Assembly (NCBI RefSeq): GCF_000317615.1
Contig: NC_019780.1
Location: forward strand, 2,067,840 to 2,131,839
DNA length: 64,000 bases
Source of the DNA: Dactylococcopsis salina PCC 8305
GTDB taxonomy: Bacteria; Cyanobacteriota; Cyanobacteriia; Cyanobacteriales; Rubidibacteraceae
Reading direction: 5' to 3'
Position 1 is the first letter of the stretch. Every line of letters begins with the position of its first letter. The translations under genes were made by a program, and so were the position numbers. The notes beneath the pieces are model-generated. The model did no database searches and was not told where the DNA came from. It saw only the letters and a list, made by a program, of their open reading frames with translations. Positions 6,298 through 8,868 of this stretch are shown in pieces.

Positions 6298-8868
6298 ATG
6301 AGTATTTCCCAAATCGTAACATGGTTACAAGAACGGACAGCATTAGCAGTTTTACCAGAAAACGTCCTTAGCGCGATCGCACCGTTATTAGAGGAACGAA
6401 TCGCAGGATCAAATCAAACCTTAGTCCAAGCAGAAACGCAGCCATTAGGACTGTATATCCTTCAGTCTGGACAAATAGAAAGTCAACCCTCACCGAAAAT
6501 TACTCCCCAAACTTCTAACAAACTGTCCTCAAATTTTAGTTTACTTCCAGGCAGTATTATCAACTTAAAATCATTAATTCTCAATCAACCGACAAGGGAA
6601 ACAATCATCACCAAAAGCGAATGTAAATTTTGGTTTCTCAATAGCGAGAAAATGCGAGCATTAATCGCAAAATATCCCGAAATTACTCAAGTTTTTTCCC
6701 AACAACTGGCGGAAGAATTAGCACTGGTTTCCTCACAACTTAACTTTGAACAAGAACGCTCCTATATTTTACGTCCATATTTGGTGACAAAAGCCAGACG
6801 AGGAATTGTCGGAAGAAGTCGGTATGCGGTGCGTTTGCGACAACAAATTAAACAAGCCTCAGAGAGTCGAGAATCAGTGTTAATTTTTGGTGAACCAGGG
6901 TTAGGAAAAGATAACACGGGGGCGTTGATTCATTTCGGTTCATCCCAGCGACGAGAACCCATTATCAAAATTGACTGTAGCACGTTACAAGCCAGTGGCG
7001 CACAATTATTTGGACGGTCTCAAGGCAAATTTGGTTTAATTGAAGCGTTAGGAAAGGGAACTCTCGTTTTCAATAACGTTCAAGAACTTGATCCAGAATT
7101 ATTGCCCTCGATCGCGCAACTCCTCAAAGATAACACCTACACCCCTGTTCCCCGCGCAGATGAACCTCCTCCTCCCCCAAAAACCTCTCAAGCTCGAATT
7201 ATTCTAATTTCCGAAAAAACCATCCCCGAACTCGATGGTTTAGTTCAACAGAGAATTAAAGTCCCGCCGTTGCGAGTGCGGAAAGGAGACATAGAAGATC
7301 AAGTCAAATACTACATTAGTTTAATTTGTCGCAGTAAAGGACTGAAAAAACCACAATTGACCACAGAAGCAACCCGACGCTTACAAGCCTATGATTTTCC
7401 TAACAATTTAACCGAATTGGAGAATTTGATCCGACGGGCGATCGTCCAATTACCAGAAGGACAACCCCTAACCGAGGAAATTGTCTGGCCCTCCCAAAGC
7501 AAAAAGAAACAATTTCGCCTGAATCTCCTGAACACCTTTCCCCGTTTCCGTCGCTTCCTGAGAAGTGTTTGGTATCCAGACCGCTTTAACTATTGGTTTG
7601 TTCTCCCAGCGTTTACCCTTGTGGTCGCCATTTTATTTCTTGGACCGCAAACTCGTTCCGAGAATTTTGCGCTGAATCTATTTTGGGCGTGGTGGTGGCC
7701 CGGTGTTCTCATTGCTTTTCCCTTTGTGGGACGATTATGGTGCGCTGTCTGTCCGTTTATGATTTATGGGGAACTCACCCAAAAAATCTCTCTGTGGTTA
7801 TTTCCTCGCGAACTGAAACGCTGGCCCCGTCAGTCGGCGGAACAATGGGGGGGTTGGTTTTTATTCGGCTTATTTGCCTTGATTTTACTCTGGGAAGAAC
7901 TGTGGCATTTAGAAAACACCGCTTATCTTTCCGCTTGTTTACTGCTTTTGATTACCGCCGGTGCTGTGATCTTTTCCCTACTATTTGAACGGCGATTTTG
8001 GTGTCGCTATCTTTGTCCCATCGGGGGGATGAACGGAATGTTTGCGAAACTCTCCATGACGGAATTACGAGCGCAACAGGGGACTTGTTCTGCTGAATGT
8101 ACCACTTATCAATGTTATAAAGGCGGTCCGGAAAAAGGAGAAGGACAAGAAACCATGGGTTGTCCCCTCTATTCTCATCCTGCACAATTGGACGATAATC
8201 GAGATTGTGTTTTGTGCATGACTTGTCTTAAAGCCTGTCCCCATCGTTCCGTAGAGGTGAATTTACGCCCTCCAGGGATCGAGTTATGGACGACGCATCA
8301 GCCCCACGCTTATGAAGTGGCGTTATTATTTCTCTTGTTAGATGTGGTGTTTTTGCATCGTCTCCCAGAAATTCAAGCGTATTGGGGACTGAGTTGGAAT
8401 TTAGAAAACTTTTGGGTGCATTTTCTGGTTTCTGTAGCGGCGTTAACTGTACCAGCTTTGATTCCCATTTTCGCCCAAATTAGCAGGGGGTTATTACATC
8501 AGTTGACCATCTTTCTTAACCCGAAAGGAGTCCACCAGAAACCGCTTCCTTTGCTGGAAAGTGCTTATGGCTATCTCCCTCTCGTTTTGGGGGCAAATTT
8601 AGCCCATTATCTCGATTTAGGGTTAGGGGAAGGAGGACGCTTACTCCCTGTGATGGCGGCGACGTTTGGGCTAAATGGTGAAGGTTTTCCGATCGCGGTA
8701 GCTGATCCGATAGTGATTGATTTTTTACAAGGGGTGACATTATTCGTTGGGGGGTTATTAGCTGTGATTTTGACTCAAAAAATCCTTCGCAGTTCTTTTT
8801 GGTCGCTCTTACCTCAATATTTGGCAATTTTGGCGTTATCGGTCTCGTTTTGGGAGTTGATTGTTTAA
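6298..8868 (+). CDS. cNMP-binding / sigma54-type AAA+ / polyferredoxin membrane fusion protein
   Basis: The protein has 856 residues. Residues ~10-150 resemble a cyclic-nucleotide-binding domain. Residues ~165-400 are a sigma54-activator-like AAA+ domain with Walker A GEPGLGKDNTG (K204). The GAFTGA loop is missing (residues 238-250 read FGRSQGKFGLIEA) and the Walker B acids are replaced (TLVFNN, N259 N260). Residues ~430-580 are membrane helices of the NapH/NosR polyferredoxin type with C482/C485 (WCAVCP) and C569/C573 (WCRYLCP). A Cys-rich stretch (C597, C601, C606, C622) and a 4Fe-4S motif C637-x2-C-x2-C-x3-CP follow, then more membrane helices to the end. The parts suggest a membrane redox sensor or electron-transfer protein with an N-terminal regulatory head. 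Cyanobacteria lack sigma54, so a classical activator role is unlikely. Confidence 0.8.
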   Translation: MSISQIVTWLQERTALAVLPENVLSAIAPLLEERIAGSNQTLVQAETQPLGLYILQSGQIESQPSPKITPQTSNKLSSNFSLLPGSIINLKSLILNQPTRETIITKSECKFWFLNSEKMRALIAKYPEITQVFSQQLAEELALVSSQLNFEQERSYILRPYLVTKARRGIVGRSRYAVRLRQQIKQASESRESVLIFGEPGLGKDNTGALIHFGSSQRREPIIKIDCSTLQASGAQLFGRSQGKFGLIEALGKGTLVFNNVQELDPELLPSIAQLLKDNTYTPVPRADEPPPPPKTSQARIILISEKTIPELDGLVQQRIKVPPLRVRKGDIEDQVKYYISLICRSKGLKKPQLTTEATRRLQAYDFPNNLTELENLIRRAIVQLPEGQPLTEEIVWPSQSKKKQFRLNLLNTFPRFRRFLRSVWYPDRFNYWFVLPAFTLVVAILFLGPQTRSENFALNLFWAWWWPGVLIAFPFVGRLWCAVCPFMIYGELTQKISLWLFPRELKRWPRQSAEQWGGWFLFGLFALILLWEELWHLENTAYLSACLLLLITAGAVIFSLLFERRFWCRYLCPIGGMNGMFAKLSMTELRAQQGTCSAECTTYQCYKGGPEKGEGQETMGCPLYSHPAQLDDNRDCVLCMTCLKACPHRSVEVNLRPPGIELWTTHQPHAYEVALLFLLLDVVFLHRLPEIQAYWGLSWNLENFWVHFLVSVAALTVPALIPIFAQISRGLLHQLTIFLNPKGVHQKPLPLLESAYGYLPLVLGANLAHYLDLGLGEGGRLLPVMAATFGLNGEGFPIAVADPIVIDFLQGVTLFVGGLLAVILTQKILRSSFWSLLPQYLAILALSVSFWELIV

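Follow-up and report, generated by a model that had tools for sequence, protein, structure and literature searches.

A predicted membrane polyferredoxin fused to an AAA+ domain of sigma54-activator type that has lost its catalytic motifs in cyanobacteria

Results

A fusion gene joins three modules of known kinds

The window, i.e. the 64,000-nucleotide stretch of Dactylococcopsis salina PCC 8305 (NC_019780.1) analysed here, contains a complete gene on the forward strand that starts with ATG and encodes a fusion protein of 856 amino acids with full-length homologues. Its features are as follows, in positions of the window:

6298..8868, forward: fusion-protein gene, 856 aa (open reading frame, full-length homologues)
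6412..6675, forward: cNMP-binding-like domain, residues 39-126, lacking the canonical phosphate-binding cassette (PF00027; motif in 0/144 members)
6790..7497, forward: sigma54-activator-type AAA+ domain with lid, residues ~165-400 (Pfam; model compared with PDB)
6889..6912, forward: Walker A, GEPGLGKD, residues 198-205 with K204 (sequence, family alignment)
7012..7035, forward: site of the GAFTGA-loop deletion, residues 239-246, GRSQGKFG (alignment with true activators)
7063..7077, forward: dead Walker B, LVFNN, residues 256-260 (family alignment, true activators)
7498..8865, forward: membrane polyferredoxin module, residues 401-856 (Fer4_5, sub-threshold NapH match, models)
7741..7755, forward: CX2CP pair, C482 and C485 (invariant in the family alignment)
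8002..8019, forward: CX3CP pair, C569 and C573 (invariant in the family alignment)
8086..8166, forward: first four-cysteine set, CX3CX4CX15CP, residues 597, 601, 606 and 622 (invariant; model pLDDT below 50 over 594-634)
8206..8241, forward: second four-cysteine set, CX2CX2CX3CP, residues 637-648 (Pfam, family alignment)
8308..8865, forward: C-terminal helices, residues 671-856, beyond the NapH-like core (models; common to the free-standing Deinococcus protein)

Matches above the curated Pfam cut-offs were obtained for cNMP_binding (residues 39-126, 7.5e-8), Sigma54_activat (170-287, 2.1e-13), AAA_lid_14 (326-392, 4e-10) and Fer4_5 (two stretches, 3.5e-9). They bear out the domain order given by the first-pass annotation, a cNMP-binding-like domain followed by an AAA+ domain of sigma54-activator type and a membrane polyferredoxin. 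The last three models matched all 43 family members scanned, and cNMP_binding matched 42 of them. The full-length AlphaFold model reached a mean pLDDT of 82.8 with a pTM of 0.58, at which the relative placement of the predicted domains is uncertain.

The family is widespread in the class and under purifying selection

At E <= 1e-10, 119 of the 386 sampled genomes of the phylum matched the protein. These comprise 104 of the 186 genomes sampled from the window's class and 15 genomes outside it, the latter with the AAA or the ferredoxin part only. Within the class sample, 183 genomes have a PF00124 (reaction-centre) match and three do not; none of the small f25 genomes (1.6-1.9 Mb) is among the family matches. 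A second type, hereafter GKT, was found at 40-47% identity in about ten genomes, as counted from match rows. Most of the query was also recovered from 2 of 72,556 plasmid records, both cyanobacterial. In the viral library, the top 50 matches listed contained weak AAA matches and one Crp-like row.

The motif census drew on 144 members, none identical to another and none shorter than 600 aa: 71 belong to the window's subfamily, 64 to the GKT subfamily and nine are picocyanobacterial. Besides identical sequences and shorter members, it left out L051, which has an internal stop, L055 and L056, and the outgroup loci (five, L077-L081). Three sequences with in-frame stops (L145, L151 and L161) and four others, because of their size, were kept out of the structure alignment. 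Some members carry an in-frame TGA, and one GKT gene consists of two overlapping open reading frames (match rows of G109, G119, G376 and G116 C175; L091); decay or assembly error are possible causes of both.

In three congeners, dN/dS was 0.055-0.071 over the AAA stretch and 0.054-0.070 over the membrane stretch. These values are rough since dS is near saturation (1.1-2.1), and neither L011 nor the CNB stretch of L010 yielded a usable dS. Purifying selection acts on the defunct AAA domain no less strongly than on the membrane part, which rules out a decaying relic within the limits set by that saturation. One congener (G054) has two gene copies, one of them at L057 4081-6777 on the reverse strand; the copy beside psbB, the position of the window's gene, evolves faster than the other (branch 0.31 vs 0.05).

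The AAA+ domain keeps the activator fold and loses its motifs

The predicted AAA domain superimposes on the bacterial enhancer-binding proteins (bEBPs) FleQ (6jdi; Z 25.1, 2.2 A, 227 residues) and NtrC1 (1ny6; Z 24.3, 1.9 A, 225 residues) and on VpsR (7v2b; Z 22.4, 3.3 A, 225 residues). Together with its conservation, this fold match rules out a chance resemblance to activator AAA domains.

The lysine equivalent to K204 is kept in all 144 members in the alignment. At the Walker B acid positions the window's protein has N259 and N260; the catalytic glutamate occurs in 0/144 members (asparagine in 131/144), and the first aspartate in 46/144 and in none of the 71 members of the window's subfamily. 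No GAFTGA-like pattern was found in the 144 sequences. We further aligned 19 members with five true activator AAA domains, taken from three proteins of non-photosynthetic relatives. In all 19 the GAFTGA loop is gone through a short deletion, a gap replaces FREDLYYRLNV, the arginine-finger segment of activators, and the sensor I Thr-Asn is lost. The sensor II arginine varies among the members compared. Every ATPase or activator element examined has thus been lost, bar the P-loop lysine. The disabled activator domain proposed in the first-pass annotation, with K204 kept, Asn-Asn at Walker B and GAFTGA absent, was thereby recovered as a property of the whole family.

The same annotation had also supposed that the domain binds nucleotide and does not hydrolyse it. 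The second half of this claim is supported by the missing Walker B glutamate; the first half fares worse, as the residue before the Walker A lysine is glutamate in 43/71 members of the window's subfamily (glycine in 25/71, including the window's protein) and in 8/9 picocyanobacterial members. In the GKT subfamily this residue is glycine in 64/64 members, and threonine follows the lysine in 63/64. Judged by sequence, a canonical Walker A is confined to the GKT subfamily, and the P-loop of the window's protein looks normal. Nucleotide control thus seems plausible for the GKT type and doubtful for most proteins of the window's type.

The host genome has no rpoN match

The rpoN model PF04552 had no match in the D. 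salina genome (3,781,008 bp in one contig, 99.99% complete), as the first-pass annotation had expected for a cyanobacterium, and all four controls (E. coli, B. subtilis, Caulobacter and Bacteroides) were positive. Five other Sigma54_activat matches in this genome scored 23.6-33.1 bits, vs 54.9 for the gene described here. Francke and co-workers (PMC3162934) report sigma54 and its activators as absent from all 29 cyanobacteria sequenced at that time. The four lost motifs and the lack of an rpoN match rule out a sigma54-dependent activator. Neither of the findings that would have refuted the first-pass annotation, homologues with intact GAFTGA and Walker B or rpoN in this genome, was made.

Three observations from related genomes are of note. 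The cyanobacterial genome G123 contains an open reading frame of 202 aa (L175 1459-2067, reverse strand) with a sigma54 DNA-binding domain at 62.1 bits; PF00309 and PF04963 gave no match in this genome, making it an orphan rpoN-box fragment. Only one other of the 386 genomes, G224, exceeded the PF04552 cut-off, at 23.1 bits, and its open reading frame looks sigma70-like by eye. The non-photosynthetic relatives L077-L080 (G321, G106, G325 and G134) encode activator AAA domains in which the Walker motifs are intact and a GAFTGA-like loop is present, in three of the proteins as two tandem domains, in genomes with no match to PF04552, PF04963 or PF00309.

The cNMP-binding-like domain lacks the canonical cassette

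The PF00027 match indicates a CRP-type cyclic-nucleotide-binding fold, so this part of the first-pass assignment stands. Cyclic-nucleotide binding itself is weakened, as GE..RTA, the phosphate-binding cassette pattern of such domains, occurs in 0/144 members; in 133 of these the domain covers the glycine column used for the test. The nine picocyanobacterial members have no CNB-like domain. Taken with the AAA motifs, the census suggests that little or nothing of the canonical ligand chemistry is left in either N-terminal domain.

The membrane module carries twelve conserved cysteines

At least one 4Fe-4S motif had been predicted from the sequence, and the family alignment exceeds this prediction: twelve cluster-type cysteines in four motif groups are all present in 143/144 members and probably carry [4Fe-4S] clusters. 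Hydropathy gave seven membrane segments, the full-length model nine long helices; nine helices would bring the whole set of twelve cysteines to the same side as the N-terminal domains, and the putative clusters and the AAA domain would then share one face, probably the cytosolic one.

Modelled alone, the membrane part reached a pLDDT of 78.6 and a pTM of 0.80. It had no PDB match at E <= 0.001 and a best VIA Z of 5.6; this is no proof of a new fold. With TIGR02163 (NapH/MauN) it scored 52.1 bits, below the cut-off of 213.05, over residues 476-654, and with the NosR model 15.8 bits, below the cut-off of 1000. The whole module is present in a free-standing protein of the 450-aa type from Deinococcus ficus (WP_027463891; 31% identity over 414 aa, hhalign 100% over 408 columns). 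A free-standing haloarchaeal protein matched by profile (99.6% over 368 columns) with several cysteine positions not kept, and an FtrD-like 4Fe-4S protein of Azospirillum, whose gene has P19-like, cupredoxin and FTR1 genes as neighbours, matched over 200 columns (hhalign 98.9%). The simplest reading of these comparisons would be that an existing polyferredoxin became fused to a defunct activator core.

GKT-type genes often lie near cysteine-synthase and sulfide-related genes

An initial hint came from nine GKT-type loci, of which five are followed by a cysteine-synthase gene. We assembled 61 GKT loci, 59 from a genome scan of the best 80 of 523 relatives, seven of them on contigs that by their equal lengths are those of the initial set, and two from plasmids. 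Twenty-one loci of the window's subfamily from the same scan served as controls, with similar flanks (means of 12.0 and 13.5 kb in total). The cysK and marker counts below refer to these best 80 of 523 relatives plus the two plasmid loci. The cysteine-synthase gene and the markers were picked after the clusters had been seen, the p-values are uncorrected and the loci are related to one another.

A cysK-like gene lies within 8 kb of the family gene in 37/61 GKT loci vs 0/21 controls (p 2.1e-7), and on the same strand at most 600 bp downstream in 33/61 vs 0/21. All ten further markers were likewise found at GKT loci and at 0/21 control loci: rhodanese at 17/61 (p 0.003), PetC at 12/61 (p 0.02), psbA and an SQR-like gene at 9/61 each (p 0.06 each), ETHE1-like and CydA at seven each, TauE at six, HemN and heme oxygenase at four each and an HdrB-like gene at three. 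Singly, psbA, the SQR-like gene, CydA and the other weaker markers do not reach p 0.05. Any of the ten occurs at 31/61 GKT loci vs 0/21, and cysK or any marker at 45/61 vs 0/21. After clustering at 80% identity the latter count is 17/27 vs 0/18 and at 70% 1/3 vs 0/6; for cysK alone, 12/27 and 1/3 of the GKT clusters at these two levels. These counts support a link of the GKT subfamily to cysteine synthase and to sulfide and low-oxygen genes.

CysK and PetC representatives pass the NCBIfam cut-offs; those of the SQR-like, ETHE1-like and HdrB-like genes are clearly related but stay below the equivalog cut-offs. D1 genes are present at ten loci. Scored at the manganese-ligand positions, six have changed residues (L093, L107, L112, which is truncated, L115, L128, which is in pieces, and L143) and four look normal. 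A C-terminal isoleucine was considered as a hook for cysteine synthase and rejected: it ends 25/64 GKT and 0/71 window-type proteins, and directly follows a membrane helix.

The two plasmid genes are L092 9881-12595, on a plasmid of Aulosira laxa NIES-50 typed as conjugative, and L093 9902-12595, from Pseudanabaena galeata CCNP1313. Both are accompanied by cysK, PetC, D1 and rhodanese genes, from which the kit appears to be mobile. That sqr lies close to alternative psbA genes has been published (PMC5061849); the terms '4Fe-4S', 'cyclic nucleotide' and 'sigma' do not occur in that paper.

Neighbours of the window's subfamily are not informative

Among the best 80 of 523 relatives the window's subfamily has 21 loci, and neither cysK nor any of the ten markers was found at any of them. 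In four loci of the window's genus, the window included, the gene is followed by psbB; the window's psbB copy is CP47 by NCBIfam. Six window-type loci have an RNase III-like gene at a distance of 0.4-1.0 kb downstream, and in four a DUF4330-like gene comes immediately before the family gene (both named by eye). As far as seen, these three kinds of neighbours are lineage effects, and the neighbourhood of the window's own subfamily is not informative.

Searches of the upstream regions for NtcA, SqrR-like, FNR, CRP and Rex sites and for palindromes gave no convincing excess and no shared motif. A loose SqrR-like pattern occurred 7 times vs 2.5 expected in the window's and picocyanobacterial subfamilies (80 upstream regions), and 3 times vs 2.2 expected in the GKT subfamily (62 upstream regions). 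The promoter/terminator scan returned 10 promoter-like sites vs 5.7 expected, which is nothing to build on.

Discussion

The domain architecture, the loss of motifs, the twelve cysteines, the purifying selection, the free-standing relatives and the GKT neighbours together favour a membrane redox protein facing the cytosol, in which a pseudo-ATPase acts as a dock or switch and not as a gene activator; we hold this reading with about even confidence. Such a protein would be membrane-bound and transfer electrons with its iron-sulfur side toward the cytosol, probably linking a quinone or soluble carrier with an acceptor. The two N-terminal domains, formerly ligand and ATP modules, would now form a non-catalytic dock, an oligomerisation platform or a conformational switch, and the AAA part may convey to the redox part that an effector or partner is present. 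The neighbours of the GKT subfamily suggest a setting in sulfur redox and in acclimation to low-oxygen or sulfidic conditions, where the protein perhaps supplies or senses reduced sulfur for cysteine synthesis, and the window's subfamily could be a general-purpose version. This setting is supported for the GKT type; since the window's subfamily has none of these neighbours, we infer it for the window's protein by carrying it over at about 40% identity. The 'nucleotide-controlled' part of the device suggested by the first-pass annotation we keep as a hypothesis. A bolder version, which we regard as distinctly improbable, is that a non-hydrolysing activator ring gates the polyferredoxin, with the pseudo-AAA domain sensing nucleotide, sulfur or redox state and switching electron flow; the GKT version would then belong to a mobile kit for stopping oxygen evolution and living on sulfide.

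Other functions can be read from the same modules. The remote relationship of the membrane core to the Azospirillum protein could indicate metal uptake or reduction in the manner of FtrD of FtrABCD or the CcoG-type copper reductases, with regulatory domains added. This seems unlikely, as that match covers the core and not the C-terminal helices, and no recurrent permease, cupredoxin or P19 cluster accompanies the family among the neighbour clusters listed. A role in the biogenesis of photosynthetic or respiratory complexes, where the pseudo-AAA domain recruits clients and the polyferredoxin gives electrons or clusters, would agree with the alternative PetC, the D1 subunits and CydAB at GKT loci and with the position ahead of psbB in the window's genus; these links are specific to one subfamily or one genus, and we give such an assembly factor little credence.

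The activator origin of the AAA part, with VpsR as its best single-sequence PDB hit, also raises a membrane-tethered transcription regulator that still works after the loss of sigma54, like the sigma70-dependent TyrR or VpsR. We consider this very unlikely, as no helix-turn-helix or other DNA-binding domain appeared in the Pfam scans of the window's protein and 43 members, and the chain runs on into nine predicted membrane helices. VpsR and similar GAFTGA-less activators are soluble DNA-binding regulators; they resemble the window's protein in having an activator fold without a working GAFTGA and differ from it in that the latter is membrane-bound with cluster motifs. Sigma70 dependence with a changed GAFTGA is reported for TyrR, DhaR and HupR (PMC3162934).

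The membrane redox protein that we favour can also be set against known systems. With NapH/MauN (TIGR02163) it shares paired CP-type cysteine motifs after membrane helices, a cytosolic 4Fe-4S segment and Fer4_5 (PF12801), but it has extra C-terminal helices, the fused CNB-like and AAA domains and a score below the cut-off. The free-standing Deinococcus ficus and haloarchaeal 4Fe-4S proteins share the membrane module without the N-terminal domains, and the FtrD-like protein shares the polyferredoxin core only, in a different gene setting. In common with bEBPs such as NtrC1, FleQ and PspF it has the AAA core and lid fold; unlike them it lacks GAFTGA, the Walker B acids, the arginine-finger segment and a DNA-binding domain, in a genome without PF04552. 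We found no description of the fusion protein family in the openly licensed literature searched. The modules are all of known kinds; their combination, the family-wide loss of catalysis and the sulfide-linked subfamily are undescribed as far as the literature was searched.

One practical consequence is an annotation correction, as the copy on the Aulosira plasmid is labelled 'nitrogen assimilation regulatory protein'. More broadly, an activator-type AAA domain has been kept under strong selection in many cyanobacteria with its catalytic parts gone and joined to a membrane redox module. Through the sulfide-linked GKT subfamily it may become possible to study how cyanobacteria redirect electron flow where sulfide is present and oxygen is low, which bears on the history of oxygen.
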